64,000 bases of DNA from Halorientalis sp. IM1011. Lineage in GTDB: Archaea; Halobacteriota; Halobacteria; Halobacteriales; Haloarculaceae. This document shows, piece after piece, positions 6,583 to 26,642 of the stretch. The notes under the pieces are model-generated. The model searched no databases. It was given only the letters and a program-made list of their open reading frames with translations, and had not been told where the DNA came from. Within the stretch, counting starts at the first letter, position 1; every line of letters starts with the position of its first letter. Made by a program: the position numbers and the translations under genes. The stretch covers positions 496,001 through 560,000 of the forward strand of contig NZ_CP019067.1 in assembly GCF_001989615.1 (NCBI RefSeq), given 5' to 3'.

Positions 6583-7466
6583 CCGACGATCACGATTCAA
6601 TCTGTTCGAACTTTGCGGTGGTTCGCCAGTTCGATGATCTTGACCGTGTCGTCGCTATCCGAGACACCATCTTGGCTCTTGACCACAGCGACGTAACTCG
6701 GGCAGACGTTGATCGGGGGTTAGAAACACCGCTGACAACCCGAGAAATGGCTGCCCTCTTCACCTGTCTTCAGAAGAACGGAGCAGCAACTCAATCAGCG
6801 ACCGACGAGCGGGGGTTTGCGGACTACACTTTCGAGGTCGATCCTCTCGAAGTGGATCGAGTACTGACCCAGCAAGCCGCGGTGATTGCATCCGACGGTC
6901 GTTCCTCCCAAACGGGCCAGGACGACGTCGTCGAGTTCGTGGCCACACTTCCGGGAGGATTCGAACCGACTTCCGCACGCGTCCGTTCGATCCCAGACAT
7001 CGCCTCTACGATCCGCAACCAAGTGTTCGACGCCGATTCGTCGGTCCGAATCGCCAACCCGTACTTCGATCCATCACTCGAACTCGTGGCCGACCTTGCG
7101 AGTCTCCCCCAACGAGGTGTCGAGACACGACTACTGACCCGAGAAACCGCAGACGAGGAAGGCGATACACGAACGACGCTCAATAAGATGTGGGACTTGA
7201 TCGACAAGGACCACCGCGACAACTTCGAGGTGAGAGACCTCTACCGATGGGACGAGAAACAGGGCTCTCAGGCGTTTGCGACTCACGCGAAGATCGTGAT
7301 CGTTGACGATAGGGTCTGCTACGTCGGAAGCGCGAACCTGACTGATACGAGTCTCTCGACTAACTTCGAGTTCGGCGTCGTCGTGGAAGGTGACATAGTC
7401 AAGGAGGCCGCGACGGTGTTCGACGAAGTGTTCGAGTACTCGTACCCAGTTGATCTCCCGATATAG
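6579..7466 (+). CDS. drmC: DISARM nuclease DrmC (phospholipase D family)
   Basis: A 295-aa phospholipase-D superfamily protein, the third core DISARM component. One HKD motif is visible, THAKIVIVDD with H236, K238 and D243, followed by GSANLTD; a single motif means it would act as a dimer, as in Nuc-type PLD nucleases. The frame is open upstream of 6579, but the GTG at 6579 overlaps the drmB stop as GTGA, the classic coupled start, and the upstream extension lies wholly inside drmB, so I chose GTG. The N-terminal half (helical, residues 1-130) has no recognisable domain. Confidence 0.85.
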   Translation: MTDDHDSICSNFAVVRQFDDLDRVVAIRDTILALDHSDVTRADVDRGLETPLTTREMAALFTCLQKNGAATQSATDERGFADYTFEVDPLEVDRVLTQQAAVIASDGRSSQTGQDDVVEFVATLPGGFEPTSARVRSIPDIASTIRNQVFDADSSVRIANPYFDPSLELVADLASLPQRGVETRLLTRETADEEGDTRTTLNKMWDLIDKDHRDNFEVRDLYRWDEKQGSQAFATHAKIVIVDDRVCYVGSANLTDTSLSTNFEFGVVVEGDIVKEAATVFDEVFEYSYPVDLPI

Positions 7467-7501
7467 CCGGGATACTGCTCGTGTCTTGAGGGTGAAAGCT
7501 A

Positions 7502-7513
7502 TTACATACTTTA
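7502..7513 (+). promoter_or_regulatory. TATA box of the DUF262/AlbA_2 gene
   Basis: TTACATACTTTA lies about 35 bases before the ATG at 7543. It favours that ATG over the TTG at 7450, which would overlap drmC, and suggests the gene is transcribed independently of drmABC. Confidence 0.5.
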
Positions 7514-7542
7514 ATGGTGCTCGCCGTGACCTGTTTTATCAC

Positions 7543-9936: not shown

Positions 9937-10944
9937 ATGCACCCGGACGCCCCGCCGGACGAGTCTAACGTCCTCGAAAAAGTCGAGACTGCCCTGAAAC
10001 AGGCAGTGAGAGAGCACTCCGACCTAAACTGGGAGTACGGGACTCGGATCAAGAGGCAGAAGTACACGTACCTCGCGGTCAAGCACTTCACCGGTGACGA
10101 CGAGACGTTCCCGGTCACGTATAGCTGGTACAAGTTCGGGGCCGTGATGCCAGCGGCTCCGAAGTCGGGGACAGTCGGTCCAACGAGCACGCAGATGCCC
10201 ACACCGGACGCACGCGAGTCGGGGATATTCACGGCGGCCTTCGACGACATCGTCGATTTCTACCGACGCAGTGACTTCACACCCAACTTAGACCAGGACT
10301 GGTGGTATGCGAGCGACCTGGACTTCCTGGCGGCATTCTACGAGTCACACGCGCCAGAGGAGTATCGGGACTTGTACCTGGGGAACGTGTCGCTCCGGCA
10401 ACACCTCGATTCCGCGTTAGAGGCGGTTCGGACGGCTCGACGGGGATCATCAGCAGATCAGCCTTCTCAGGTGTTCGGCACAGAGCGGTACGAGGATGTC
10501 GGGCGAGCTGCTGCTCAAATCCACCTCGGCCTGGTAGGTACCGACTTCCTGAGTCAGACTCTCGACGAAGTCCGAGAGTTTACAAATCTAGTAGAGGACG
10601 CGTTTCTCGTCCTCAGTCAGACGCGTGCTTCAGAAGTCACGGAGTCACAGGTGACCGTGCTGGAAGAACTGAAGCAGGTCTACAACGAGTGGATCTGGGA
10701 GTATCCCGCCCTTTTGATGTCGAAAGAAACCGCGAAGGGTCCGAACGCCTCGACCCTGCGGAAGTGGTCTGTCCAGAAGCACTTCACTGTGGAGGACAAT
10801 CTACAGAAACACATCGACAGTGTTGGTCAATCCTGTGTGGATGCTGGTCTAGTTCCGACCTCAGATCAGTACCCGGAACACGAAGACGACGTTGAAACTA
10901 TCAGTCGAGCCAATGCGCTCCAAGCGATGCGTCGAGATGAGTGA
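9937..10944 (+). CDS. Unknown protein paired with a PIN nuclease
   Basis: 335 aa, function not recognised. Residues 61-70 (TYSWYKFGAV) within a segment preceded by YLAVKHF faintly resemble the aromatic-Lys-Tyr-Gly-Pro stretch of Panacea/SocA-type antitoxin domains, but the match is weak. The second half is predominantly helical with no catalytic motif. Its stop lies within the first codons of the downstream PIN gene (8-base overlap ATGAGTGA), so the two products are made together and probably interact. A GAGGT sequence upstream of the ATG supports the start. An antitoxin or regulatory role is inference from context only. Confidence 0.65.
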   Translation: MHPDAPPDESNVLEKVETALKQAVREHSDLNWEYGTRIKRQKYTYLAVKHFTGDDETFPVTYSWYKFGAVMPAAPKSGTVGPTSTQMPTPDARESGIFTAAFDDIVDFYRRSDFTPNLDQDWWYASDLDFLAAFYESHAPEEYRDLYLGNVSLRQHLDSALEAVRTARRGSSADQPSQVFGTERYEDVGRAAAQIHLGLVGTDFLSQTLDEVREFTNLVEDAFLVLSQTRASEVTESQVTVLEELKQVYNEWIWEYPALLMSKETAKGPNASTLRKWSVQKHFTVEDNLQKHIDSVGQSCVDAGLVPTSDQYPEHEDDVETISRANALQAMRRDE

Positions 10945-11701
10945 AATTGTACCCGCAGGGGAGGTAGAGGACCTTTTCACCGATACCTGCGTGTTGTTCG
11001 CTTACGCTGTCGAAGGGGAGGCAGACGCAAATAGGCTCTTTGAAGACACCGATCTCGACAAAGTAGCCAGCGAGCGCATCAAGCGCGAGTTCGTCTCGGT
11101 AGCTGATCGGCACCAAGACATCCACCGAGAGCTCCTTGAGTTTGCTGCGAAGGGCGATCTGGACGAGTACGAGCCCACCGATCTGGACCAGAAGAACGAC
11201 GTGCGGTACGTTATCGACCTGTACTCCGACCTCACCGAGATGGACGACGTCGAAGTAGTTCGTCGATTGAACGAGCTGATCAATCGGCTGGAGAAGGCGA
11301 GAAACGAACTCTTCGAGACCGACGGAGTCCTCACTGTCCTGGCCATCGATGGGGTTGACGCTCGGCTAGTTGGTCTGCTCCGCGGTGTCGTCGAGAACGA
11401 GGACGATATCAGAGTTCTCTGTGATGCAGCTGCGTGGAGCCGAAATGGCGGATCAGGTACATTTCTCACTGAAGACACTGAAGACCTCTTGGGAAGCGAC
11501 GAGGATACAGGAAGTGCTGTAGAAGGTGGTGAAGCGGACGAGAGCGGTGATGGTCTTCCCGACTCCTTCACGGATTTCCTGGGCTCAGAAAACAAGTCCG
11601 TACCGGAACGAATCAACGACCAGATAGTGAGTCGATACGATACTGACTCAGCGTTACAGATCCTCTCGATAGAAGATTTTCTCACTATCGAGGCTAAGTG
11701 A
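10937..11701 (+). CDS. PIN-domain nuclease-like protein
   Basis: 254 aa. The N-terminus reads LFTDTCVLFAYAVEGE, a PIN-type first acidic site (D16), with later acidic positions E47 in ASERIKREF, D163 in VLCDAAAW and D180 in FLTED, the D-E-D-D order of a PIN ribonuclease or DNase. Residues ~185-215 are a low-complexity acidic/Gly linker. The frame is open back to 10892, but the ATG at 10937 overlaps the end of the preceding gene and begins the recognisable domain, so I chose it. It may be the effector of a toxin-antitoxin-like pair or a nuclease of the neighbouring systems. It is longer than a typical VapC. Confidence 0.72.
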   Translation: MSEIVPAGEVEDLFTDTCVLFAYAVEGEADANRLFEDTDLDKVASERIKREFVSVADRHQDIHRELLEFAAKGDLDEYEPTDLDQKNDVRYVIDLYSDLTEMDDVEVVRRLNELINRLEKARNELFETDGVLTVLAIDGVDARLVGLLRGVVENEDDIRVLCDAAAWSRNGGSGTFLTEDTEDLLGSDEDTGSAVEGGEADESGDGLPDSFTDFLGSENKSVPERINDQIVSRYDTDSALQILSIEDFLTIEAK

Positions 11702-11708
11702 GAGGTCC

Positions 11709-12401
11709 TTACCGAGACTCCGCAACGATTTGTCTGATCATCTCTCGTGCCTCGTTCTCTGACAGTCCTTCAAGCTGCACGTTCGTCAGTGCGTGATTGA
11801 ACCGTCGCGTCGTCTCGTCTATGACACGCGACGGTTCGTCCGCGAGTTCGTCACACATGGCTCGAACGGCGGGTTGGTAGCGCGCGAACCAGCGGTCGAA
11901 GACTTTGTTGACCATCGTCTGGTTGGCAAAGACCGCGTCAGTCGTCGAGTAATCGTCGCCACGGGACGTGAGCTCCGCGATCCACCAGAGACGGTGGATG
12001 GCGTTTGAGTACAAGTCGGAGCCCGCACCGAGGAACTTTTCTCTCATCGCGGCTTCGGAGCGATACTCCCAGCGGTGGCGTACGAACTCGGGATACTGAT
12101 CAACCGCGATCCAGTGCCAGAGGCCTGGATCACCAGCAGTCCGCCGAGTGATGTCCAGGCACCGGTGCACATCTTCGGCGAGGGCCCCGTCCATCGCGGT
12201 GTCGGTCTCAGAGTGCTCAGCCAAGATCTTCTCGACCCTCGAGTTGAGTGTCTGGAGATCACCTGTCGCTCCACCTGGCATCGGTTCTACGTACTCGTCC
12301 AATGCCTCGTCGGGGATCTCTGCTTCACCCTTGAGGAACTCCTCACCGACGAGTCTCCGACCGTCTTCGACGAATCGATGTAGTCGTTCTTCCTCGGCCA
12401 T
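11709..12401 (-). CDS. DUF6339-like protein, cassette A
   Basis: 230 aa, third gene of the first GHKL cassette. Signature stretches are GLWHWIAVDQYPEFVRHRW, FLGAGSDLYSN, HRLWWIAELT and RRFNHALTNVQLE. I recognise the family as resembling DUF6339, whose function is unknown but which occurs beside ATPases and cytosine methyltransferases. No nuclease or ATPase motif is visible. It is clearly paralogous to the gene at 19410-20126 (shared PG-W, FLG-DLYSN, RLWW-LT and RFN-LT-Q motifs). Its start follows the partner gene stop by 1 base, so it is co-transcribed. Confidence 0.75.
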   Translation of the reverse strand: MAEEERLHRFVEDGRRLVGEEFLKGEAEIPDEALDEYVEPMPGGATGDLQTLNSRVEKILAEHSETDTAMDGALAEDVHRCLDITRRTAGDPGLWHWIAVDQYPEFVRHRWEYRSEAAMREKFLGAGSDLYSNAIHRLWWIAELTSRGDDYSTTDAVFANQTMVNKVFDRWFARYQPAVRAMCDELADEPSRVIDETTRRFNHALTNVQLEGLSENEAREMIRQIVAESR

Positions 12402-12402
12402 A

Positions 12403-13443
12403 TCAGATCCGGAGTCCTTCTTCCATGAGGTTGATCAGTTGTGTTCTCGGGTCGATGTATTCCTGTAGTTCTCTGTCGATCCTATCCATCAAATGAGGCA
12501 ACGCTTCGGGGTCGGAAACGTCTGCTCGCAGCATGTGTGCAGCTTCAGAGACATCGTCTACCTCGTATAGATTACGAGCGAATGTGTCGACGACAGTTTG
12601 CTGCCAATCGTGTTCTACGTCGCCATCTTCGTCTATAGCGCAGGCCGCACGGACGATCAACTGGGACCAGACACCGTAACTGATCTCGTCGAGGATCACG
12701 TCTCGCATCCGAGCCTCGGCCCCGACCGACCCTTGGCTCTGGAGTATGTCGGTGATGCGAGGGTGATCCGAGTTGATCCAGAGCTTCGGGCGACTCTCGT
12801 TTCGGAAGTCGAGGTAGTAGAGCTTGTCACCTTCAGGGAGGTGAGGTGTGCGTGAGAAGCTGACTTCTTCACCGTCGATCGCCGGTGGTTGCTCTCCTGG
12901 CGGGAGATCGACGACCACGGAATAGATCGTTCCACTCGCTAGCCTGAAATTCTTCTTTCCAGCGTATCGTCCATCTGTCGGCCCATCCTCCGTTCGAACG
13001 AGGTAGGGGCGAAGCTCGACCGTCCCCCTGACCATCTCTTTCGGTATCCTCACCGTGGCGTTGTACGAATCAGGAGCAGTGGGTTCGTCGGATATGACCG
13101 TCTTGTCACGATATATCGTCTCGTGACAACGCACCGCGACGTAGAGTTTTGCTGGAGGATCGTCGCGCTCTTGCTCTGGAAAGACAGCTTCGACGGTCTC
13201 CTCTGGGACGTTGAGACGACCAAACAAGGTGACCTTCTCCCAATCGTCCGCTCCCTCGTCTTCGGGTGACGGAAGCGTTTGCGTTAGATCGACCTCGGTC
13301 TGGCCTGCTTTGAGATCCAGTTCTTTGGGCTTCGATCCATCGACAGAGTACTCTTCTAGGTCGAAGTCGAGGCCGGTGTCCCGATATTTGAACGGGAGGG
13401 TCGTACTCCTGTGCCGTTGCGTGTGCTTAGTCAAGTTCGTCAC
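12403..13443 (-). CDS. Cassette A partner protein (unknown family)
   Basis: Up to 346 aa. Residues ~1-200 look beta-rich with many charged strands; the C-terminal third is helical, with PKLWIN, DILQSQG, WSQLIV and HDWQQ. The same motifs recur in the paralogue at 20123-21127 (PKMMIN, DVLQSG, WIQLV, FDWQ, and VRTE in the beta part), so they mark a family, which I cannot name. The start is ambiguous. The GTG at 13443 directly abuts a GGGAGG sequence, whereas the TTG at 13434 has that sequence at normal spacing and overlaps the ATPase stop by 8 bases, so TTG may be the real start. The overlap suggests tight stoichiometry with the GHKL ATPase. Confidence 0.7.
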   Translation of the reverse strand: MTNLTKHTQRHRSTTLPFKYRDTGLDFDLEEYSVDGSKPKELDLKAGQTEVDLTQTLPSPEDEGADDWEKVTLFGRLNVPEETVEAVFPEQERDDPPAKLYVAVRCHETIYRDKTVISDEPTAPDSYNATVRIPKEMVRGTVELRPYLVRTEDGPTDGRYAGKKNFRLASGTIYSVVVDLPPGEQPPAIDGEEVSFSRTPHLPEGDKLYYLDFRNESRPKLWINSDHPRITDILQSQGSVGAEARMRDVILDEISYGVWSQLIVRAACAIDEDGDVEHDWQQTVVDTFARNLYEVDDVSEAAHMLRADVSDPEALPHLMDRIDRELQEYIDPRTQLINLMEEGLRI

Positions 13444-15340
13444 CTCCCGTAGTCTGGATCTCCGCCTTGATTTCGATCTGCGTCTCGCCGACTTTACCGC
13501 TCAACATGTCGTCTTCGTCTGTGGCACGAGAGTATCCTTCGAACGAGACGTTCTCCGTATTTGCGTCTGCAACTAAGCGAGCAGTCCCGTTCTCGTGAAC
13601 CTTCGTCACGTTCTCGTCGTCCACAGACATCGAGTCGACGGGAATCTCGTCGGATCTCGAACCGTCTTCGCCGATACCGGTGAGCGATATCTCGGCGGTC
13701 CATCCATCGAACTCTTCCACGATTGGTTCGATTCGACCCGAGAACTTCCAGCGCTCTCCGTCGAACTGCGAGGAACTCACGATCTCGAAGACTTCTGCCG
13801 GTGTAGAGTTGCCAGTCGTTCTCGGGGCTCCATCCCCATGGATCGGGAAACGGTTCAGCACGTTGTCGGAGAGGATATCTGTGCCTCCGTCACTCTTGGC
13901 GAGGAGATGACGGAGACCATCGCGCATCGTATCGAACATATCTTCGAGCGCCGTTCTGAAGCCACGCTGGTATTGTTCTCGTAGATTCTCGGTAGATTCC
14001 CATTCGTCGTGTTCTGGAGGTTCGGCGAAACGCAAGAACCGATCGACCTCTTGGTCGGAATCAGAAGGTGGGAAATCGGTGCGTGCCTCTCCACTAGCGA
14101 GTATGGCGTGGAAGTTTCGATCACCGAAGGCCACTCGACTCTGATCGTAATACTTCACCACCATCCCTGCCCCCCTGAACAAGGCCACTTTGTTGAGATA
14201 GGTATCGTCGTCTGCTGGGGAGGCGAGGCGAGCAGCCAGTCGGACTTCTCCGTCTGGAGTTTCGGAACCATCTGCACGTGGGGGGATGTTTACTGGGATA
14301 TCTAGTCCTGCTACGTCACCTGGCTCGCCGAGTAGCTGATTTTCATCGAACCTCGATTTGAAACACTCCAGGAAGGGCCTGATCGAAGGGACGTTCTCTG
14401 TCTTCGCCTCGTACGTTTCTTCAGGCGTCTCGACAGTTACCTCGAGGTCGTCACGGAAGATGGCCGGCCAGAAATACTTGACAGAGGCCTCCACGAACTC
14501 TTCTGCAAGGTCGTCGATCTCTGGTCGTTCGTCCCGGGTTGGGTCTTGGAAATCGACGACCATCGCACTCGTTCCACTGGTGTCGTCCCGCCCGACATGC
14601 AGTCGTTCGGCCAGTTGCTCTGCCTCCTCGCCTCGCATGGACATGGGACGGATACCGTCTTCGGTCTCCCGGGTTTCACACAACCATCCAGCACCCTGAT
14701 ACGTAGTATCGTCGTCCGGGAGTTCGTGTGTCGGGAACTTGGATCTCGCTATTACCCGCGGAGCCTGTGTATCCTCGGACACGTCCGTCGGATACGAGTT
14801 GAACACTACCGTCGAAGCACCAGAAAACGTCCAGAGTACTGATTTCCCGAGACCGTACGATCCGCCGGCTGTGTCGTCTTGTTTGCTACTGTACAACTCG
14901 TCTCGGACGAGAGCGGCGTAGTTAGAATCTTCTTCCCAAGTGCCCGTGAGACCGGTCGTGTTCCTATCCTCCACGATCAGGAGACGTATCTCGGCGTCGG
15001 GATCGTCCATCCTTTCCAAGAGATCGCCGTATCTTCGACCGTGTTCGGCTCGCGAGACAGCCTCGAGTCGGTCTTCGAGCCCCTGTTTCCACTCTAACGT
15101 ATTCAGGAACGCCTCTTTGTCTTCCCCAGACAGAGTGACGAACCGGAAGGTGACCCGTACCGGGTCTTCGTTGTCCAGTCCTTGGTCGTTCGCGTTTTGT
15201 AACACTTCGCGGACGAATGCCTCGGCGTCGTGATCAACAGAGTGCTTCGTCGGGTCGTCTCCGTATCGTGGGGCGCCCGGCCCTCCATTGAAGAAGAACC
15301 ACTCTGCTTCGCCCGCCGTGTCGTGTGGTTTTCGAGTCAT
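13427..15340 (-). CDS. GHKL ATPase (MutL/MORC-like), cassette A
   Basis: 637 aa. It has the Bergerat ATP-binding fold: N-box FVREVLQNANDQG with E45 and N49, a G1-type motif VEDRNTTGLTG with D125, and the G2 lid GGSYGLGKSVLW at 159-170. The middle (to ~500) would be the transducer part, and the C-terminus is beta-rich. No nuclease motif is visible. GHKL ATPases of this kind act as ATP-driven clamps on DNA and occur in prokaryotic restriction-modification operons related to MORC. The frame is open to 15409, but I chose the ATG at 15340 because it aligns with the start of the paralogue at 21127-23127. First gene of an ATPase-partner-DUF6339 operon, divergent from the methyltransferases. Confidence 0.85.
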   Translation of the reverse strand: MTRKPHDTAGEAEWFFFNGGPGAPRYGDDPTKHSVDHDAEAFVREVLQNANDQGLDNEDPVRVTFRFVTLSGEDKEAFLNTLEWKQGLEDRLEAVSRAEHGRRYGDLLERMDDPDAEIRLLIVEDRNTTGLTGTWEEDSNYAALVRDELYSSKQDDTAGGSYGLGKSVLWTFSGASTVVFNSYPTDVSEDTQAPRVIARSKFPTHELPDDDTTYQGAGWLCETRETEDGIRPMSMRGEEAEQLAERLHVGRDDTSGTSAMVVDFQDPTRDERPEIDDLAEEFVEASVKYFWPAIFRDDLEVTVETPEETYEAKTENVPSIRPFLECFKSRFDENQLLGEPGDVAGLDIPVNIPPRADGSETPDGEVRLAARLASPADDDTYLNKVALFRGAGMVVKYYDQSRVAFGDRNFHAILASGEARTDFPPSDSDQEVDRFLRFAEPPEHDEWESTENLREQYQRGFRTALEDMFDTMRDGLRHLLAKSDGGTDILSDNVLNRFPIHGDGAPRTTGNSTPAEVFEIVSSSQFDGERWKFSGRIEPIVEEFDGWTAEISLTGIGEDGSRSDEIPVDSMSVDDENVTKVHENGTARLVADANTENVSFEGYSRATDEDDMLSGKVGETQIEIKAEIQTTGGDELD

Positions 15341-15668
15341 TTGTTCAGAATAGATATATTGTCGTTGTATTGGGTGACCTCGATAAACGTGTCGGTCCCC
15401 CCTTTCCATCTATCGCCTACTCTGATCGTTCGCCTCACGGTGCTCTCCGAGCGTGGAACTCACCGTTAAATATGAACCGTGGATGATCGGGAGTCAATTC
15501 TCCGAAACTCTTGGATAGCGATCCATTTTCAGAGCCATTCAGCGCAGGATCTGCTTATTCCATCGGCATCCGAACCAGTTGAGAAACATTCTGATCACTT
15601 GGGTCTCCAACTAGTCAAGTACAGCATAGATATGGTCGTTGAGGCAGCCGCTGTGATGAGTTATCCGA
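15341..15668. other. Gene-free promoter region upstream of cassette A
   Basis: 328 bases with no convincing gene. It contains an imperfect palindrome at 15461-15482 (CACCGTT-AAATATG-AACCGTG core) whose centre reads ATATTTAACGG on the minus strand, a TATA-like element within a possible operator. Nearer the ATPase start there is AATATATCTA on the minus strand, about 15 bases before the ATG, too close for standard spacing. An open frame at 15479-15880 on the plus strand lacks coding character. Confidence 0.45.
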
Positions 15669-16031
15669 TCATCTGTTCTGGTGTTTATTCTGGACTTTAT
15701 CCATCTTACACTGGACACAGAGGTCATCGGCGAAACAGGCGACGTTGTCGTATGGACAATCGTAATCGTCGGCTTCAACCGACAGTTGACGTTTCGCGTG
15801 TTTCCACTCAGTCTCCCAATCGTCGATATCCATATCTAGGGAGTCAAACACGACGTCTCCATCCTTGTCGATTATCTTGACCGCGGTTGTAGAGTAGCGA
15901 TTGTCTTTGACGAGTTCGATAGCCTCTCTGTAGGAGGAACACTGGATATTTTCTCTCCCTGCATCGTCGTCTAAGAGACGGACTGTGAGCAATCCATCGT
16001 ATCTCTCTGTGGGCTCTGGATCATCCGACAT
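15669..16031 (-). CDS. Small Cys-rich protein divergent from the first methyltransferase
   Basis: 120 aa, unknown family. It is acidic, with an alpha/beta-looking N-terminal half (YREAIELVKDNRYSTTAVKI) and a C-terminal C-x6-C-x5-C-x2-C cluster (CPYDNVAC then CVQC) that could bind zinc. It is transcribed away from the methyltransferase at 16119 with 87 bases between starts. That is the place where restriction-modification loci often carry a controller gene, but no helix-turn-helix is visible, so regulation is only a possibility. Acidic, halophile-like composition supports it as a real gene. Confidence 0.6.
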   Translation of the reverse strand: MSDDPEPTERYDGLLTVRLLDDDAGRENIQCSSYREAIELVKDNRYSTTAVKIIDKDGDVVFDSLDMDIDDWETEWKHAKRQLSVEADDYDCPYDNVACFADDLCVQCKMDKVQNKHQNR

Positions 16032-16087
16032 ACAGATCTTGTCGTCACTGTATCACAAAAACCCCAATGCTGGCATAGATACACCAG

Positions 16088-16095
16088 CACTTATG
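16088..16095 (+). promoter_or_regulatory. TATA box of the first methyltransferase
   Basis: CACTTATG is centred about 27 bases before the ATG at 16119, consistent with leaderless transcription. Confidence 0.6.
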
Positions 16096-16118
16096 TTGGA
16101 CTACTAGGAATTGAGACT

Positions 16119-17231
16119 ATGAAAATTACCGCGGTGGACCTCTTCTGCGGCGCTGGAGGACTCAGCTACGGTCTAAAGCAGGCCGGTATCTCTGTGAACG
16201 TCGGGGTTGACAAGGACCCTCACTGTAACCACGCTTACGAACAGAACATCGGTGCCGAGTACAAGCAAACAGACGTACGTCCCCTCTCACAGGACCCCGA
16301 ACGCGTGGCGAGGATGTTTCCGTGGGACTCCGATTTAGACGTTCTAGCTGCGTGTGCACCCTGTCAGCCGTATTCGACGATGGGACACTCCAAAGACAAG
16401 ACGCACGAAGACCACCAGAAGTGGGGGCTACTCAAAGACGTCAAGAAGATCGTCGAGTACGTTGAGCCGGACGTCGTCGTCACCGAGAACGTTCTCCAGG
16501 TACGGAAGGACGACGTCTACGACGAACTCGTTCAGACTCTCGAAGAACTCGGGTACCACGTAAACACCGACGAAGATAAGAAGGTCTACTGTCCGGAGTA
16601 CGGGATTCCACAGAATCGGAAACGGTGGGTGATGATGGCCTCGAAAGAAGGACCGATCTCTCTGCCCGACCCCCTCTACGAAGATGAGTCCGAGTATCCG
16701 ACTGTCCGGGAAACGATCGGGCACCTACCCTCACTCCAAGCTGGAGAAGTTCATCCAGACCACGACCTCCATAGGGCACGAACTCTCTCTGAGACGAACC
16801 TCGAACGTATCCGACATATGGAGCCTGGTGGAGATTGGCGACTCTGGGAAGAGGAAGGCCTAGACCACCTGTTAGCAGACTGCCACAGGAAGTCCAGCGG
16901 TCGATCGTACAAAGCTCCGTATAGCCGAATGGAACCGGATAAAGTCGCTCCGACGATCACGACCCAGTTCTACAACTACGGAAGTGGTCGGTTTGGCCAC
17001 TACGACACCGATCAAGATAGAGCGCTGTCCCTCTTGGAGGGTGCGCTACTACAGACCTTCCCAGAACACTACGACTTCTACGACGATTGGGACGAAGTCG
17101 GAGTGAAGAACTTGGGACGGTTGATCGGGAACGCGGTTCCGCCGCTACTCGGCGAACACATCGGCAGAGGAATTCTCTCGCATGTCGGTGCCGAAGTACC
17201 CGCTGTGAATGCCGGGACGGCCGACGACTAA
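16119..17231 (+). CDS. DNA (cytosine-5) methyltransferase 1
   Basis: 370 aa. It transfers a methyl group from S-adenosylmethionine to C5 of cytosine in a short DNA target. Motifs in order: I DLFCGAGG (7-14), IV APCQPYS with catalytic C82, VI ENV at 123-125, VIII QNRKRW, IX FYNYGSGRFGH and X IGNAVPP. The target-recognition region between VIII and IX is short. It could be the DrmMII methylase of the neighbouring DISARM genes or the modification enzyme of the GHKL cassettes. It is closely related to the gene at 18094-19185; the two share a 24-base identical run (16995-17018) over motif IX. Confidence 0.92.
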   Translation: MKITAVDLFCGAGGLSYGLKQAGISVNVGVDKDPHCNHAYEQNIGAEYKQTDVRPLSQDPERVARMFPWDSDLDVLAACAPCQPYSTMGHSKDKTHEDHQKWGLLKDVKKIVEYVEPDVVVTENVLQVRKDDVYDELVQTLEELGYHVNTDEDKKVYCPEYGIPQNRKRWVMMASKEGPISLPDPLYEDESEYPTVRETIGHLPSLQAGEVHPDHDLHRARTLSETNLERIRHMEPGGDWRLWEEEGLDHLLADCHRKSSGRSYKAPYSRMEPDKVAPTITTQFYNYGSGRFGHYDTDQDRALSLLEGALLQTFPEHYDFYDDWDEVGVKNLGRLIGNAVPPLLGEHIGRGILSHVGAEVPAVNAGTADD

Positions 17232-17326
17232 GCCAATCGATTCAGCTGTCCTCGAATTCAGGTCTAGGAATTGGAGATCCGCCGTGTAATGGGCTTTCAA
17301 TACGGTAGCGGTAATACCCGGAAACG

Positions 17327-17953
17327 ATGGGGAGCCTGAAACAGGAGCAGTTCCGCTCCGAGTTGATGGAGTGGGCCGAAGAGAACTTGCGTGACTTCGC
17401 GTGGCGCGACGAGCAACTGTCGCTTTACGAGGTGTTCGTCGCCGAGTTCTTCCTCACCCAGACACCAGCAGGGAATGTCGCCGAAGTATATCCTGATTTT
17501 CTGGAGCGATTCCCTGATCTCCGTGCGATCGATGGAGCGACCGAAGAGGAGTTGATAGACGTGATCGAACCGCTCGGTTTCTACAACATGCGAGCAGAGG
17601 CGCTGAAGAGTATTGCCGCCGAGAAGCGCGAACTTCCAGAGACAGTAGAAGAGCTTACTCAACTCCCTCGTGTGGGGCACTACGTAGCCAACGCGACACT
17701 CTGTTTCTCACGGGGTGAGCCGTTACCTATTCTCGATAGGAACGTCAAGAGGGTGTACGGTCGAGTCTTCGATACCGACTGGCCGGACACCCGATCAGAA
17801 CAGATCACGTTCGCTGAAGAGCTTCTCCCTGAGGCCGATCCGCGTACTTACAACTTAGCACTACTCGACTTTGGGGCAGCGGTTTGTCGATCAGATCCGG
17901 CTTGTGACCAGTGCTTTGCGAACGGTTACTGTGAGTACTACGAGAGCCTCTGA
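17327..17953 (+). CDS. HhH-GPD DNA glycosylase, Mig-like (T/G mismatch)
   Basis: 208 aa, a full-length EndoIII/MutY superfamily glycosylase. The helix-hairpin-helix is LPRVGHYVANA (113-123), the catalytic Asp is D137 in ILDRNVKRV, and four cysteines C187, C193, C196, C202 would hold a [4Fe-4S] cluster. At the position of the EndoIII catalytic Lys it has Tyr (Y119), as in the thymine-mismatch glycosylase Mig of Methanothermobacter (Tyr126), whereas MutY has Ser. LTQTPAGNVAEVY also matches the Mig RTTAGHV region, and a MutY/Mig-type Glu (E40) is present. Between two cytosine-5 methyltransferases it would repair T/G mismatches from deaminated 5mC. MutY-type adenine excision is the main alternative. 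Confidence 0.85.
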   Translation: MGSLKQEQFRSELMEWAEENLRDFAWRDEQLSLYEVFVAEFFLTQTPAGNVAEVYPDFLERFPDLRAIDGATEEELIDVIEPLGFYNMRAEALKSIAAEKRELPETVEELTQLPRVGHYVANATLCFSRGEPLPILDRNVKRVYGRVFDTDWPDTRSEQITFAEELLPEADPRTYNLALLDFGAAVCRSDPACDQCFANGYCEYYESL

Positions 17954-18093
17954 TTCCTACTTGAATACAACCGTTCGACAGGATCACCTCCGGCTGAGAA
18001 TAGGACTATCTGTAACTGTGGACGCGATGAAGCGGTGACAGTGTCCGTTGGTAAAATGTTTAGTCGGGAGAGGTCATACCCTTATACGACCGA

Positions 18094-19185
18094 ATGCATA
18101 TCTCTGCTATCGATCTGTTCTGTGGTGCCGGTGGGCTCACCAACGGACTGGAGCGTGCCGGTATCTCTGTGGAGGCAGGTATCGACATCGACCCAGACTG
18201 TGAATTTCCTTACGAACAGAACAACGAGGCAGAGTTCGTTCTCGAGGATGTGGGCGAACTTGCACGAAAAGAACCGGAGAAGGTAGCAGATTACTTCGAC
18301 CCAGAAGCCGACGCCACTCTACTGGCAGGATGTGCTCCGTGTCAGCCGTTCTCTCCACTGACCCACGGCTCGGACAGCTCCGAGCACTCCAAGTACGGAA
18401 TGCTACGAGCGTTTCTGGAGATCGTCGGGGAGACCGAACCCGACATCGTCGCCATGGAGAACGTCTTCGAAGTCCGCCACGCCGACGTCTACGACGAATT
18501 CATAGATGGCCTAGATGATCTCGGCTACAACTTGAATCCGGAGAACGACAGGCGAGTTTACTGCCCGGAACACGATATACCTCAGACCAGGCGTAGATGG
18601 GTCGTTCTGGCGTCGAGAAATGGTCGGATAGATCTCGGTGAGCCGTTGAGACCCGAACCTGAAGAGTATCCGACCGTGAAAAACCGCATAGACCACTTAG
18701 AACCTCTAGAAGCAGGCGAGACGTCCGAAAACGATCCTCTACACACTGCACGTGCTCTATCAGAGAAGAATTTAGAGCGGATCCGACACTCAGAACCCGG
18801 TGGAAGCTGGCGCGATTGGCCAGAAAGACTCCAGCTCGATTGTCACAAAAAGGCGAGTGGTCAGACTTACGAAGCAGTGTACGGTCGGATGGTCGCCGAC
18901 GAACCAGCACCGACTATCACGACTCAGTTCTACAACCTCGGAAGCGGACGGTTCGGCCACTACGACACCGATCAAGATCGTGCACTGTCACTTCGTGAGG
19001 GTGCGATGATACAAACCTTCCCCGAGGACTACCGCTTCGCCGACGACCTTGAAGCAGTCGGGATCACCAAAGTCGGTCGTCTGATCGGGAATGCAGTACC
19101 ACCAAAACTGGGAGAAGTCGTCGGCGATCGGGTCGAAGAGTTCCTCAGGGGGATGGATAGACAAGCTACTATCACGGACTACTAG
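18094..19185 (+). CDS. DNA (cytosine-5) methyltransferase 2
   Basis: 363 aa, paralogue of the enzyme at 16119-17231. Motifs: I DLFCGAGG, IV APCQPFS with catalytic C83, VI MENV, VIII QTRRRW, IX FYNLGSGRFGH and X IGNAVPP. All catalytic residues are intact. The differences lie mainly in surface loops and the stretch before motif IX, so the DNA target may be the same or slightly changed. It is placed so that each of the two GHKL cassettes has one methyltransferase nearby. A CCCTTATACG element at 18079-18088 is only ~10 bases from the ATG; AAAATGTTTAG near 18055-18065 has better promoter spacing. Confidence 0.92.
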   Translation: MHISAIDLFCGAGGLTNGLERAGISVEAGIDIDPDCEFPYEQNNEAEFVLEDVGELARKEPEKVADYFDPEADATLLAGCAPCQPFSPLTHGSDSSEHSKYGMLRAFLEIVGETEPDIVAMENVFEVRHADVYDEFIDGLDDLGYNLNPENDRRVYCPEHDIPQTRRRWVVLASRNGRIDLGEPLRPEPEEYPTVKNRIDHLEPLEAGETSENDPLHTARALSEKNLERIRHSEPGGSWRDWPERLQLDCHKKASGQTYEAVYGRMVADEPAPTITTQFYNLGSGRFGHYDTDQDRALSLREGAMIQTFPEDYRFADDLEAVGITKVGRLIGNAVPPKLGEVVGDRVEEFLRGMDRQATITDY

Positions 19186-19200
19186 TCTGGTTTGGGGTAT

Positions 19201-19209
19201 TATTATATG
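19201..19209 (+). promoter_or_regulatory. TATA box of the 53-aa gene
   Basis: TATTATATG lies about 27 bases before the ATG at 19232. It is the strongest promoter-like sequence between the second methyltransferase and cassette B and supports the small gene. Confidence 0.55.
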
Positions 19210-19231
19210 AATCCAATATAAGATGACATAT

Positions 19232-19393
19232 ATGCCAGAGAAGACCTCGAACAAGGTTAAAAAAGCCGCTGATAAGATCCTACGCAAAGTTACGAACGAG
19301 GAGTACGACGAAGAGAGCAATCGCTACCGAGACAGGGACGACAAAAAATACACGCGTGGGCCCCATCACGACGAAGAAGAGGACGAGAAGTAG
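19232..19393 (+). CDS. Small charged protein, 53 aa
   Basis: An open frame from ATG 19232 to TAG 19391-19393, with a Lys-rich N-terminal half (PEKTSNKVKKAADKILRKV) and a C-terminal half rich in Asp/Glu/His ending DEEEDEK. The first ~20 residues could form an amphipathic basic helix. It has a well-spaced TATA box and lies between methyltransferase 2 and the convergent cassette B. No family is recognised; a small DNA- or protein-binding accessory is possible. It may also be a chance frame. Confidence 0.5.
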   Translation: MPEKTSNKVKKAADKILRKVTNEEYDEESNRYRDRDDKKYTRGPHHDEEEDEK

Positions 19394-19409
19394 ACTGTTT
19401 GTAGAATCG

Positions 19410-20126
19410 CTAACTCGTACTTTCGACGTGGTTTCGTATCTTCTTCAGTTGATCCCGGATCTGTTCTTTCGATCGTGACTCGAGTTGTGTCGTCGAGAGT
19501 GAGTTGTTGAACCGCTTTGCGATACTCGTAATGTTCTTGCCACTCTCTTTCCAGAGTTCTTCGGCGAATGCGATCGCTGCCGGCCGATATCGTCTGAACG
19601 AACTGTCGAGTACGTAGTTCACCAACCGCTGCTTGTTGAACAGTCGATGCGTAGCGAAGTAGTGGTCTTCGTTCTTATCGTACGTAAGGTGTGCTCCCCA
19701 CCAGAGACGCGCTAGGTGGTTGGAGTAGAGATCTTTCTGGGTTCCGAGGAACTTCTCCTGTAGGTCGTCGTCTTGACTCCACCGAGACGTGATGAAGTCT
19801 GGGTAATGGAGGAGTGTCAGATAGTGCCACATTCCGGGTACTGCGGCCACACGAGGTGGTACGTCGATACACTGATGCACGATAGGGGCGAGGTTAGAGT
19901 CCATCGCGGTTCGCTGTCGTCGTCGCCCCAAGTCGAAGATCGCCATCGACGTTTCGATCGCCTCGTCCAGCCGATCGTAGTCAATCGTAGCCTCTTCCAC
20001 TTCGAGAGTCCGGAGGTGACTCTCGAGTTCGTCGGCAGGCGGTTCTGATCCCTCTTCCTCCGGAAATCTATCGTGGGACTTCACGAGGTCTTGGCCCGAA
20101 TCGGCGAGTACGTGGATCGTAGTCAT
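19410..20126 (-). CDS. DUF6339-like protein, cassette B
   Basis: 238 aa, paralogue of the protein at 11709-12401. It shares GMWHYLTLLHYPDF, FLGTQKDLYSNHLARLWWG and AKRFNNSLSTTQLE with the equivalents there. Identity is clearly partial, so the duplication is old. It overlaps the end of the partner gene by 4 bases and is last in its operon. No enzymatic motif is visible; the conserved aromatic-rich PG-W and RLWW blocks suggest a binding surface. Confidence 0.75.
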   Translation of the reverse strand: MTTIHVLADSGQDLVKSHDRFPEEEGSEPPADELESHLRTLEVEEATIDYDRLDEAIETSMAIFDLGRRRQRTAMDSNLAPIVHQCIDVPPRVAAVPGMWHYLTLLHYPDFITSRWSQDDDLQEKFLGTQKDLYSNHLARLWWGAHLTYDKNEDHYFATHRLFNKQRLVNYVLDSSFRRYRPAAIAFAEELWKESGKNITSIAKRFNNSLSTTQLESRSKEQIRDQLKKIRNHVESTS

Positions 20127-21127
20127 GGTGAGTGTTCCTGAATGAAGTAGTCGAGGTGTTCAGCGTACTCCTGATAGAGTTGAACAGCTTCACAGAGATC
20201 GGTGATCAGTTCACGTAGTTTCGATGGGTCCGAGATCTTCTCGCCGAGTTCCGAGACGACCGTCTCGTAATCGACGTCCTCACCGAATAGGTGTGTACCG
20301 AGCATAGATTCGGAGATCTCTTCGATCACCCCTTCTTGCCAGTCAAACTCGGGCTCACCCGCTTCCGCGATCGTCGTCCCGGTGAGTATCACGAGTTGGA
20401 TCCAAAGAGAGACACCGAAGTCGGCCTTCAGTAAGCGCTTCATGTTCGGCCGGAACCCGTACGTGTTACCGCTTTGGAGGACGTCGACGACGTTTTCGTT
20501 CCGGTCGTTTATCATCATCTTGGGGTTCGGAGTCTTACTGAACGAGTGGACCAGTTCTTCGGGAGGCATTCCTTCTTGTGAGAAATCCCTGTACACGAAC
20601 GGAAACCCGTCTGAGTTCTTCGTCGGATGATCCACGACTACCGTCCAGCTCTCGCCACCAGCCACACGCATCCCGTCGTTCGGTGCGTACGGGAGTCCTT
20701 CCCGACACGGCTCTGTCCTGACCAACCGAGGTGTCAATACTACGTCACCACGGAGAAGCGACCGGTCCAACGTGAGTTCCACGTCGTAGCTCTCCTCGGA
20801 GATTGGTGGATTTGCGACGTTCTTCTCGAAACGCAGCTGTGTCTCTTCGGCATCCACGATCACGATCAACTCTGCCGGAAATGGTGGTCCCTCGTCGTCG
20901 GGGAAGACGCGTTCGACAGAATCACCTACCGTCACATTCCCTTCGATAGTCACTTTTGACCAATCACCGTAGTCGTACAGTGGGATAGTCCTGTCATCGT
21001 AATCTGGACTCCCGACGTCACCCCCGTCGAAAGAGAAGCCGGTGATCCCGAACTGGAGGCAACCGTCTGCATAGAGGTACGGCATCGACTCGTCGCGTGA
21101 CTTCGAACTTCGAGTGTTCGCAGGCAT
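20123..21127 (-). CDS. Cassette B partner protein (unknown family)
   Basis: 334 aa, paralogue of the partner at 12403-13443. The beta-rich N-terminal two thirds contain LTPRLVRTEP (YLVRTED in the other copy); the helical C-terminal third contains PKMMIN, DVLQSGN, SLWIQLV and FDWQEG, all matched in cassette A. Its ATG overlaps the ATPase stop as TGATG, with a GGAAGG ribosome-binding sequence inside the ATPase end. Constant linkage between ATPase and DUF6339-like genes suggests all three act together. Function unknown. Confidence 0.72.
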   Translation of the reverse strand: MPANTRSSKSRDESMPYLYADGCLQFGITGFSFDGGDVGSPDYDDRTIPLYDYGDWSKVTIEGNVTVGDSVERVFPDDEGPPFPAELIVIVDAEETQLRFEKNVANPPISEESYDVELTLDRSLLRGDVVLTPRLVRTEPCREGLPYAPNDGMRVAGGESWTVVVDHPTKNSDGFPFVYRDFSQEGMPPEELVHSFSKTPNPKMMINDRNENVVDVLQSGNTYGFRPNMKRLLKADFGVSLWIQLVILTGTTIAEAGEPEFDWQEGVIEEISESMLGTHLFGEDVDYETVVSELGEKISDPSKLRELITDLCEAVQLYQEYAEHLDYFIQEHSP

Positions 21128-23127
21128 CAGGAATCACCTTCCGTCTCGATTTCGGCTGACACGTCCAACCTCGCCTCGGTAATAGCCCCGACTTCGAACG
21201 CTTCCCGGACATCTCCGATACCGTCTACGACTTCTTCGGAGCTACCTTCGAACTCGATCTCGTCGATCGACTCGTCAACCTTGAGTGTGACAGACGAACC
21301 GTTGTACTTCATCTCCACACCTGGCGAGAGGGGTTTCACAGACTGTACTGGTATGGAGTCCGACGATGATTCGTCGACGTCCAACCGATCGATCGTAATC
21401 GTGACGCTCCAAGGCCCGTGTTCCTCGTCGATCGGCCCACCCTTACCATAGAACGACCAGTTCTCGTCGTCGAACCATGTCTCGGGTTCCACGTTCCAGT
21501 CCATCACTGGACCACCGCCTTTGCTTTCGTCGTCGTTCGTCCTCCCCCCCATTATCGGTGCTACGTCGTCCATGTCCGGGACTTCGTCACCTGACTCGAT
21601 ATCCTCTTGAACGACCTCTGCCAAGGCCCGCTCTAATCTCTCTCCCTCGAGAGCGGCGATTTCCTTCACTATAGTACCGCGGTAGTGTTTCTTCAGGTAG
21701 TCGTTCTTGCTACCTTGCCAGTCGTCGTGCTGGGTCGGCTCCGATCGCTTGAGGAACTTCTCGACCGCACGCTGCTCTGGTGTTGGAGTGTCACCGTTGG
21801 GAGATTGGGCCTCGCCACAGACGAGAACACCAACGAAGTCGTCACCCCTGTCCGCGACACTGCTCTTGTCCACGTAATCCACGATCATCTGTGCACCCCG
21901 AAGCCTCGCAACCCGGTTCTTACTCAGGTCGGTGTCGTCGCTCTCGTCGAACTCTTCTGTATCGGTCGGATTCAGTTGTCGAATCAGCAGATCGACGGTC
22001 GTCTTGTACTCTGGGTCTGGAGTGTCTATGACGCCCTCACTCTCTTCGGGGACAGTGATGTCGACGCTCGTCTTCGCCACAGAACCTGGCCCCTCTAATT
22101 CGTCGGAGTCCACGTCGAACAACTGTGAGTAACACTCGACGAACGGCCGTACACCTGGAGCATCGTCCCAATCCGCGACTTCTTCAGCCCCGTCCGGCGT
22201 ACGGATCCGAATTTCCAGGTCACCTCGCGAAATAGCCGGCCAGAAGTGTTTTACAGCCGCATGACGGAACTTCTCGGACAGATCCTCGGGGTCGGGGTGC
22301 ATGTCTTCGCCAGGGATCCGGAACCCTACGACCCCGATACTCGTACCAGTCTCCTCGTTCGGCCGTTCTACCTGTAGAGTCTCGGCTAGCTCCGAGACCG
22401 TATCCTCACGCCCCCAGAGGGACGGCGGACGACCCAATCGGTCTATCTCTGAGTCGTCGTCGTATCCGAACCAGCCGTGGTTCGTGTACGTCCGATCTGC
22501 ATCCTCGTGTTCGTGTGCAGGAAGGATACTACGACCGATCAGCCGTGGCGGTTCCCTCTCGGCACTGGGTGTATCGCGCGGTGTCGAGTTGAACAAGACC
22601 GTCGAGATACTCGAGAATGCCCACAACACGGTCTTACCGACTCCATGGCTTCCTCCGGAGCTCGAGTCCAACTTCTCGGATCCTCCGAAGTCCTTCACGA
22701 GTGCACCGTAAGGTTGAGAACTGTCGTCTTCTTTCCCAACCAGCCCTGTCGTGTTCTCGTCGTGGACGGTGAGCACGAGTAGCTCTTCTCCGTCGAAACT
22801 ATCGATAAAACGTTTAAGTCCCGGATCTCTCGCCTGTTCGTTGTCGATAGCGCGTTCGACATGCCACTCTAGGTTTGCTGGTGGATCTGTCTGACCTGTC
22901 CACTCTAGGGCTTCGAGATAATCTTTTAGGTCGTCTCCAGTGAGTCGATTGAACTCGAACGTTACCTTTACTGGATCATCGTTCGGTAGGCCTTGGTCGT
23001 TGGCGTTTTGGAGAACTTCCCGGACAAACGTCTCCAGTTCACTATCCAGAGCTTTCTCCGTAGGAATGGAGTGATAATCGGTCAGCCCCGAGGCCTGATC
23101 CGGGAATGTCCACTTTACATTAGTCAT
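21127..23127 (-). CDS. GHKL ATPase (MutL/MORC-like), cassette B
   Basis: 666 aa, paralogue of the ATPase at 13427-15340. N-box FVREVLQNANDQG (E37, N41) is identical in both copies. The G1-type motif is VHDENTTGLVG (D123) and the lid GGSHGVGKTVLWA at 158-170. The C-terminal beta domain (GPWSVTITIDRL... IEFEGSS) matches the other copy. All ATP-site residues are kept, so both copies are probably active. The frame extends to 23208, but the ATG at 23127 begins a sequence that aligns with the other ATPase start. First gene of the cassette B operon; it marks the end of the defence genes. Confidence 0.85.
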   Translation of the reverse strand: MTNVKWTFPDQASGLTDYHSIPTEKALDSELETFVREVLQNANDQGLPNDDPVKVTFEFNRLTGDDLKDYLEALEWTGQTDPPANLEWHVERAIDNEQARDPGLKRFIDSFDGEELLVLTVHDENTTGLVGKEDDSSQPYGALVKDFGGSEKLDSSSGGSHGVGKTVLWAFSSISTVLFNSTPRDTPSAEREPPRLIGRSILPAHEHEDADRTYTNHGWFGYDDDSEIDRLGRPPSLWGREDTVSELAETLQVERPNEETGTSIGVVGFRIPGEDMHPDPEDLSEKFRHAAVKHFWPAISRGDLEIRIRTPDGAEEVADWDDAPGVRPFVECYSQLFDVDSDELEGPGSVAKTSVDITVPEESEGVIDTPDPEYKTTVDLLIRQLNPTDTEEFDESDDTDLSKNRVARLRGAQMIVDYVDKSSVADRGDDFVGVLVCGEAQSPNGDTPTPEQRAVEKFLKRSEPTQHDDWQGSKNDYLKKHYRGTIVKEIAALEGERLERALAEVVQEDIESGDEVPDMDDVAPIMGGRTNDDESKGGGPVMDWNVEPETWFDDENWSFYGKGGPIDEEHGPWSVTITIDRLDVDESSSDSIPVQSVKPLSPGVEMKYNGSSVTLKVDESIDEIEFEGSSEEVVDGIGDVREAFEVGAITEARLDVSAEIETEGDS

Positions 23128-23613
23128 TTTTTGACCGAGTGGGTGAGAGTATCGACGGCCGGCGTATGGGACATATACACCACAGATGGGCAACACATTA
23201 TTTAACATTGGCTATCCAAAAGGATCCAGAACAGTCGGGTCATCTGAACAGATCACGAAGGCCTTCTAACTTGAACTGGAGTTTGCTAACTTGAATTACA
23301 ATACCTCAACCGATAATTGGTTATTTAAAAGTCTTGTTTCGGCAGTCAGTTTAGTCACGAAGGCAAGGTCCGCAACCCGTTTCATCTACCTTAACTGGAA
23401 TTCGGTTAACCACGGAGTTTTTTCTGAGTTGTGCCCCTTTGGCACACGGCCTAAGCCCCCCCTGCCCAACTGGCGGAACGACGACCGCCGAGGACCGCCT
23501 ATTGAGCGCGACACTGCGATGCAACTACCAACAGGAAATAACCAGCAAAAATAATTCGACCGGTGTGAGTGCCGAAACCGGGGGTCGTCGGTAGTGTTGC
23601 CACTCAGCCGTCG
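23128..23613. other. Gene-free AT-rich junction between defence island and element remnant
   Basis: 486 bases with no gene I accept. The left part holds promoter-like elements for cassette B on the minus strand (GTTAAATAATG and TGTATATG). The 10-mer CTAACTTGAA occurs at 23266-23275 and again at 23286-23295, and a related 25-base copy, CTACCTTAACTGGAATTCGG and following bases, lies at 23386-23410. TTATTTAAAAG near 23331 is a further TATA-like sequence. The open frame 23291-23554 lacks halophilic composition. Confidence 0.5.
23266..23410. repeat. Imperfect direct repeats at the island edge
   Basis: CTAACTTGAA is repeated exactly 20 bases apart (23266 and 23286). A diverged version of the whole 25-base unit, sharing the AACTGGA core and a TAAC end, starts at 23386. 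These could be binding sites of a regulator or recombinase, or traces of a duplication. Confidence 0.4.
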
Positions 23614-26400: not shown

Positions 26401-26570
26401 AGACACCACCTCCCTCTTCGAATCGGCAGACGCCGGGTGGGGTCCTTCCGAGACGGCACGAATCGATTCCCGCGGGGGAGGTCTTCGAGACTCGGATTTC
26501 CTCGAAATCCTGCCGTTGAATATGGTCTACGGACTGTTCAGTTACCCCGGAGAAGCGCGAGAAATCGGAG

Positions 26571-26642
26571 TGGACTCGCGGGGATTTGAACCCCGGGCCT
26601 TCCCCGTGCCAGGGGGATGATCTACCGCTGATCTACGAGCCC
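26571..26642 (-). tRNA. tRNA-Ala (anticodon GGC)
   Basis: A 72-nt cloverleaf. The acceptor arm GGGCTCG/CGAGTCC contains the G3-U70 wobble pair that identifies alanine tRNAs. The anticodon loop is CTGGCAC (GGC), the T arm CGGGG-TTCAAAT-CCCCG, and the discriminator base A73. CCA is not encoded. GTTTAAG near 26670-26677 on the minus strand is a promoter at suitable distance. The 3' end faces the element genes and defence island, the usual orientation for integration at a tRNA. Confidence 0.93.

Follow-up and report, generated by a model that had tools for sequence, protein, structure and literature searches.

A 64,000-nt stretch of the Halorientalis sp. IM1011 chromosome (genome G000, positions 496001-560000; hereafter the window) contains two three-gene operons matching the PADLOC candidate system PDC-M33 (M33), which together enclose two genes for cytosine-5 (C5) DNA methyltransferases (MTases). 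With a probability that we place at roughly 0.6, this interval represents a predicted methylation-linked defense locus resembling restriction-modification (R-M) systems, composed of two different PDC-M33 cassettes and two MTase-type genes, and lying beside a separate and complete class 2 DISARM system. This reading builds on sequence and conservation, which establish the gene content of the locus, the integrity of its MTase and GHKL motifs, a linkage to MTases that is independent of DISARM, and the association of the same three-gene unit with C5 MTases in bacteria.

Organization of the locus

Both operons are encoded on the reverse strand and present the same gene order: a GHKL-motif ATPase (A), a beta-rich partner (B) and a DUF6339 protein (C). 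The first, designated type 1, comprises C1 (11709..12401), B1 (12403..13443) and A1 (13427..15409), with a 17-nt overlap between A1 and B1 and a single base separating B1 from C1. The second, of type 3, comprises C2 (19410..20126), B2 (20123..21127) and A2 (21127..23208), with overlaps of 1 nt between A2 and B2 and of 4 nt between B2 and C2. All the reading frames and junctions that an initial annotation, made from the sequence alone, had described for these operons are present, and the divergence it reported between the two copies is borne out by pairwise comparison, which identifies the cassettes as true paralogues with 37% identity for A (E-value 2e-102), 29% for B (9e-36) and 42% for C (4e-44).

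The genes enclosed by the operons likewise correspond to those initially described. On the forward strand these are the C5 MTase M1 (16119..17231), divergent to the type-1 cassette, an HhH-GPD DNA glycosylase (17327..17953) and a second C5 MTase, M2 (18094..19185); on the reverse strand, a gene between A1 and M1 (15669..16031) encodes a 120-amino-acid Cys-rich protein that occurs in four haloarchaeal loci and shows a weak ZZ zinc finger match (E-value 0.054). M1 and M2 are paralogues sharing 57% identity, with a Pfam match for M1 (DNA_methylase, E-value 1e-49) and intact C5 MTase motifs (PCQ, ENV, QxRxR and GNAV; in M1, PCQ, ENV and QxRxR). PADLOC labels both of them as DrmMII (PDLC02651, E-values 2.6e-203 and 2e-132). 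No cognate endonuclease was recognized beside the MTases in this interval with Pfam, NCBIfam or PADLOC models.

A1 and A2 match the PDC-M33A model over part of its length (E-values 1.4e-26 and 6.7e-27) and match no Pfam or NCBIfam family. Their ATP-site motifs are intact, as initially proposed, in both A1 (REVLQNAND, EDRNTTGLTG, GGSYGLG, GTS) and A2 (REVLQNAND, GGSHGVG, GTS). In 22 diverse A proteins, the GHKL motifs account for 11 of the 14 invariant columns: E68, Q71, N72 and D75 in the N-box, G153 and G156 in G1, G183, G186 and G188 in G2 (GxxGxG), and G279 and T280 in the GT motif.

The DUF6339-like label given to C1 and C2 can be made definite, with both proteins scoring well above the Pfam cut-off for this family (PF19866, E-values 1.5e-20 and 3.8e-21; 74-76 bits versus 23.2) and matching PDC-M33C (1.2e-14 and 2e-14). 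The AlphaFold 2 (AF2) model of C1 is all-helical (predicted local distance difference test score, pLDDT, 94.4), and that of B1 (pLDDT 83.5) presents a beta-sandwich followed by a helical C-terminus. As modeled, the all-helical fold of C would be a new one and that of B is a beta-sandwich; neither corresponds to a recognized nuclease. The possibility that C is a hidden nuclease was considered and found no support, as Foldseek searches of PDB and BFVD with its confident model returned no match. B1 has no family match in Pfam, NCBIfam or PADLOC, and haloarchaeal B proteins fail to match the M33B model (PDLC04583) even at an E-value of 10; they occupy the same slot in the gene order as, and are similar in size to, the Deinococcus protein that does match it.

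Distribution and methyltransferase linkage

The M33A model was used to search 292 genomes of the class Halobacteria and 14 control genomes, and the approximately 20-40 kb around each match (8.5 kb for one short contig) were analyzed by heuristic, composition-based gene calling followed by clustering; the counts given here are limited by kinship among genomes, contig ends and the heuristic gene calls. M33A was found in 22 of the 292 haloarchaeal genomes and in none of the 14 controls, and DUF6339 in those same 22 genomes plus one more. About 45 haloarchaeal cassettes share the A-B-C order, nearly all of them with overlaps or few-base gaps between genes, as do at least eight bacterial loci.

The MTase subfamily of the window, defined by PDLC02651 at an E-value of 1e-80 or lower, is present in 24 genomes, corresponding to 21 of the 22 with M33A versus 3 of the 270 without it (Fisher P 8e-28; the genomes are related by descent, so this and the following P values overstate the association). 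The sole M33A genome without it is G261, the cassette of which lies on the 8.5-kb contig. DrmA, detected in 41 genomes, also co-occurs with M33A above chance (10/22 versus 31/270, P 2e-4); when the M33A genomes are set aside, however, it does not predict the MTase subfamily (1/31, P 0.31). Twelve M33 genomes have no DrmA match, and 11 of these retain the MTase. Because the MTase is found in 21 of 22 M33A genomes and in only 1 of 31 with DrmA alone, it belongs with M33 and not with DISARM, and the PADLOC name DrmMII probably reflects adjacency. The A-B-C unit is a real and widely conserved module, and none of the other partners tested shows as tight a linkage to it as the C5 MTases; the core idea of the initial annotation survives in this respect. 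In two M33-free genomes (G023 and G250), the MTase subfamily adjoins c29, another GHKL protein (HATPase_c_3) matching the PADLOC model REase_II (L112:5592-7559 (-), L114:8037-10103 (-) and L100:6855-8873 (-)).

Linkage of A-B-C to C5 MTases also holds in several bacterial phyla. On a Synechococcus elongatus plasmid, the three genes are joined by a C5 MTase in a compact run of four genes, and on a Deinococcus plasmid a C5 MTase, Vsr and a NOV_C protein precede an A-B-C operon with products that match PDC-M33A, B and C at E-values of 1e-108, 4.5e-37 and 9e-24. A Cyanobium locus presents A, B, C and the MTase together with a second, convergent cassette, and loci in Terrabacter and Acidimicrobiia also combine A-B-C with C5 MTases. 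No DISARM genes were seen in the stretches read around the Synechococcus, Deinococcus, Cyanobium, Terrabacter and Acidimicrobiia operons. In a Planctomycetota locus, the unit is accompanied by an HsdM-type N6 MTase. Neither motifs nor models revealed an MTase within some 10 kb of A-B-C in the myxobacterial loci L079 and L097; the link is thus strong and common, but not obligate. Homologues without MTases, which the initial annotation had named as evidence that would count against it, therefore do occur, to the extent of these two loci.

Two actinobacterial A-B-C operons, in Corynebacterium (L104:1795-9227, also with an MzaD-like protein) and Micromonospora (L106:6041-13370), adjoin MzaC-like Z1 helicases and may be MZA/M33 hybrids. 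Plasmid matches in Lactococcus and Ligilactobacillus were not counted as M33, being restricted to the ATPase domain and, in Lactococcus, lying beside other R-M genes. Phage records yielded one partial match only.

Cassette subfamilies

A tree built from 45 A proteins of haloarchaea resolves five well-supported subfamilies and one singleton. The subfamilies of C mirror this division, as do those of B with the exception of type 2, which is not a clean clade. None of the 31 within-locus cassette pairs, drawn from 18 loci, shares a subfamily, against a mean of 7.1 upon label shuffling (P 4.5e-5, a value weakened by shared descent). The trees and pair counts establish inheritance of A-B-C as a unit and heterotypic pairing, a pattern that excludes recent tandem duplication. 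In G008, the two cassettes lie on different contigs.

The subfamilies also differ in their immediate neighbors. In all 17 cases, type-1 A genes, such as A1, have a divergent MTase as their immediate neighbor or at a distance of one gene, whereas type-2 cassettes have two further genes, c4 and c9, directly upstream in 8 of 11. The c9 protein (L056:15360-16886 (-) and seven relatives; 508 amino acids), found only in type-2 loci, carries a GIY-YIG-like motif (GLYRVR...MYVGESG) and has no Pfam match.

Methyltransferase-type genes and glycosylase

Two METHYLTRANSFERASE-type genes are found per haloarchaeal locus, either as two C5 MTases (6 loci) or as one C5 MTase plus c4 (14 loci). The second C5 MTase and c4 exclude each other (P 1e-4, leaving out G261, where the contig is too short), and both are present in a single locus only, that of G274, which has four cassettes. 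The 258-amino-acid c4 protein (L043:18701-19474 (-) and 15 relatives) does not have the usual target-recognition length and contains motif-like stretches (LHCFADYGTESEVL, HPVCSRWA, IENVP and KNAIPAP) in the order of C5 MTases, with HPVC instead of PPCQ. Profile alignment with C5 MTases (hhalign) places motifs I to VI in register at a non-significant E-value of 0.2, and we regard c4 as a probable C5-MTase homologue.

The window glycosylase (Pfam HhH-GPD, E-value 4.6e-14) has 208 amino acids, which is too short for a MutY C-terminal domain, and reaches 147 bits against the NCBIfam MutY equivalog cut-off of 286.5. It aligns end to end with PDB 1KEA, a "G-T mismatch repair enzyme" (E-value 7.5e-25 over residues 5-207), although MutY structures score slightly higher. 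By pattern, 9 of 13 relatives carry a Tyr within LPRVGxYVA, where MIG also has one, and the protein is probably of the T:G mismatch (MIG-like) type. HhH-GPD glycosylases occur in 13 haloarchaeal gene sets and were not seen in some loci. The MTase of the Micromonospora A-B-C locus (L106:1687-3690, +) ends in an HhH-GPD/FeS-like domain (E-value 1e-13), which ties the glycosylase to the MTase. By analogy with Vsr in the Deinococcus locus, the glycosylase would fit a repair partner for deaminated 5-methylcytosine (5mC). The Synechococcus and Cyanobium MTases have similar Cys-rich tails, with weak or non-significant scores.

DISARM and other flanking genes

The initial annotation overlooked both the PADLOC listing of the cassettes and the complete class 2 DISARM system directly upstream of them. 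According to PADLOC, the genes to the left of position 7466, all on the forward strand, are drmE (C-terminal part, 1..718, E-value 1e-125; the gene encodes 821 amino acids and begins 1747 bases before the left end of the window), the helicase gene drmA (923..4630, 1235/1235 model positions, E-value 0), drmB (4633..6582, 649/649 positions, E-value 0) and drmC, which encodes a PLD nuclease (6489..7466, start more likely at 6579; E-value 2e-189, Pfam PLDc_2). They are followed, within the DISARM gene run, by a gene encoding a fusion of GmrSD_N (DUF262) to a C-terminal SLFN/AlbA_2 domain (7450..9747, +, start more likely at 7492; PF03235, E-value 2e-30; PF04326, 6e-18; HEC-05, 1e-41), the counterpart of which in G008 occupies the same place and is 94% identical. 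Next come a gene for a 335-amino-acid protein (9937..10944, +) and one to which a PIN domain had been ascribed (10892..11701, +, start more likely at 10913). Neighborhood comparison indicates that both travel with DISARM, as they accompany it in G078, a genome without M33; the supposed PIN protein has no Pfam match, and the PLD protein is DrmC itself. The suggestion that the PIN or PLD protein serves as the killing component of the cassettes is therefore not supported. In the M33-free DISARM loci of G078, G194 and G096, the C5 MTase is a different and more distant one. A Haloplanus plasmid cassette (L075:14950-18533), with an A gene split into two reading frames and adjoining DISARM, c4 remnants and IS6 elements, appears to be a decaying copy.

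On the other side, a DUF7845 protein gene (23614-25539) lies directly downstream of the end of A2, and relatives of this protein are also found near M33 or DISARM in G139, G190 and G096. A tRNA-Ala (GGC) gene (26570-26642) borders a stretch of lower GC content (about 0.49-0.59, versus 0.63-0.70 to its right). Integration of an island at this tRNA was considered and set aside, with no att-like repeat of the tRNA 3' end within 84 kb (20 kb to the left plus the window).

Proposed mechanism and alternative explanations

In the proposed mechanism, M1 and M2 would mark host DNA with 5mC, the two marks labeling self, and the glycosylase would repair the T:G mismatches arising from 5mC deamination, as Vsr would in Deinococcus. 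The A-B-C products would form an ATP-driven GHKL clamp, similar to MutL or MORC, that engages unmarked invading DNA. Because no nuclease is universal among the loci, restriction is proposed to proceed through clamp-driven DNA capture or through a recruited, locus-specific nuclease (GIY-YIG, NOV_C, a Z1 helicase partner or DISARM itself). Such marking logic is plausible, given that MORC and paraMORC GHKL ATPases occur in R-M operons (Iyer, Abhiman and Aravind 2008, PMC2292703) and that DISARM DrmAB shows lower activity on methylated DNA (PMC9142583).

Several results weigh against this interpretation. The GHKL assignment of A rests on motifs, since none of the 22 A proteins matches a GHKL Pfam model, PDB profile searches gave no match, and hhalign alignment of A with a Pfam-positive GHKL family is not significant (E-value 0.33). 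The fold of B has only a weak, UNC119/PDE6D-like match (E-value 4e-4), C has no fold relative in PDB or BFVD, the loci examined have no nuclease in common, the two myxobacterial loci have no MTase nearby, and shared descent inflates the significance of the linkage.

The rival accounts differ chiefly in what the A-B-C complex would do. It might provide defense or silencing without cleavage by topologically trapping or compacting unmarked DNA, as thought for eukaryotic MORC ATPases, a possibility that we consider unlikely but worth keeping in sight. The ATPase modules of MutL, Hsp90 and topoisomerases are known to act as dimeric clamps, and both the varying nuclease content of the loci and the folds modeled for B and C point in the same direction; on the other hand, several loci have nuclease-like neighbors (the GIY-YIG motif of c9, Vsr, NOV_C, Z1), and B or C may hold an undetected active site. 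A bolder form of this idea, which we would advance only as speculation, is a nuclease-free, methylation-guided immunity in which two or more different GHKL ATPases of one locus cooperate, perhaps as heterodimers of the MutL-alpha kind, in clamping and immobilizing unmarked DNA, with C as a structural adaptor of new fold and with the second mark possibly supplied by c4, an enzyme with an altered catalytic loop and possibly a different base modification.

It is improbable that the cassettes are instead DISARM accessories, with the MTases acting as DrmMII and A-B-C tuning or extending the DrmAB machinery. The position of drmE-A-B-C immediately upstream, the co-occurrence of M33 and DrmA above chance, and their proximity in ten genomes (G000, G008, G037, G100, G114, G145, G155, G215, G264 and G281) would favor such a role, but more than half of the M33 genomes (12 of 22) have no DrmA match and nearly all of these keep the MTase, this MTase subfamily is missing from 30 of the 31 DrmA genomes without M33, M33-free DISARM loci use a more distant C5 MTase, and the bacterial operons are DISARM-free in the stretches read. 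A still smaller chance attaches to a role in post-segregational or mobile-element maintenance that is not mainly antiviral, in which the MTase would label the replicon that carries it and the cassettes would penalize any loss of this label. Classical R-M systems behave in this way and some loci are plasmid-borne; the window, however, belongs to the 3.38-Mb chromosome contig, beside DISARM and without an att-like repeat of the tRNA-Ala gene nearby. The least probable account is a DNA-repair operon around 5mC, with the GHKL ATPases as MutL-like partners of the mismatch glycosylase. The recurrence of the glycosylase, the presence of Vsr in Deinococcus and the cooperation of MutL with Vsr in E. 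coli lend it some appeal, but the patchy distribution (22/292), the defense-island setting and the several subfamilies per locus misfit housekeeping repair, and some loci show no glycosylase.

Relation to known systems and significance

The locus had been put forward as a candidate undescribed system, a claim that does not stand, given that PADLOC already lists the three-gene unit as PDC-M33 (models PDLC04582-04587) with the same genes in the same order. The window A and C proteins match these models directly, the syntenic Deinococcus locus matches all three strongly, and the haloarchaeal B proteins are too diverged to match M33B. To that listing, the present analysis adds the MTase partner, the heterotypic multi-cassette make-up and c4. 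No publication dealing with PDC-M33, with DUF6339 or with defense by GHKL proteins plus MTases turned up in a search that did not cover subscription literature and could therefore have missed an existing name.

MORC/paraMORC and HEF_HK systems also feature a GHKL-type ATPase associated with C5 MTases, with Vsr and with a variety of nucleases or helicases, HEF_HK/Response_reg_2 GHKL proteins occurring alongside C5 MTases and Vsr (PMC8011034) and the MORC family proper carrying a GhXhhpXXRhl motif in its S5 domain (PMC2292703). The A-B-C unit differs from them in having B and DUF6339 instead of an SFII helicase or Response_reg_2, and in an A protein that matches no GHKL Pfam family. From class 2 DISARM (drmE, drmA, drmB, drmC, drmMII), a complete set of which is adjacent and to which PADLOC would assign the window MTases, the locus is distinguished by an MTase subfamily that tracks M33 and by A-B-C genes that are not a DISARM gene set. 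The resemblance to MZA or Z1-type systems is confined to the actinobacterial loci, as the window interval showed no Z1 gene and A matches PDC-M33A, not an Mza model. The glycosylase is like MIG-type T:G enzymes in being a short HhH-GPD/FeS protein with the MIG-type Tyr beside C5 MTases, and unlike them in its slightly better scores to MutY structures. With classical type II R-M systems the locus shares C5 MTases with intact motifs, but not a recognized endonuclease beside them, the GIY-YIG-like c9 being confined to type-2 loci.

These results give an unnamed PADLOC candidate a form in which it can be tested, with a named methyltransferase partner and set apart from DISARM, and suggest that the label DISARM DrmMII places a group of MTases in the wrong system. 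The five cassette subfamilies, and the finding that no locus carries two of the same one, are new here: haloarchaeal loci combine different subfamilies and apparently never duplicate one. The system bears on the role of MORC/MutL-like ATPases in prokaryotic restriction and on the evolutionary origin of MORC silencing in eukaryotes.

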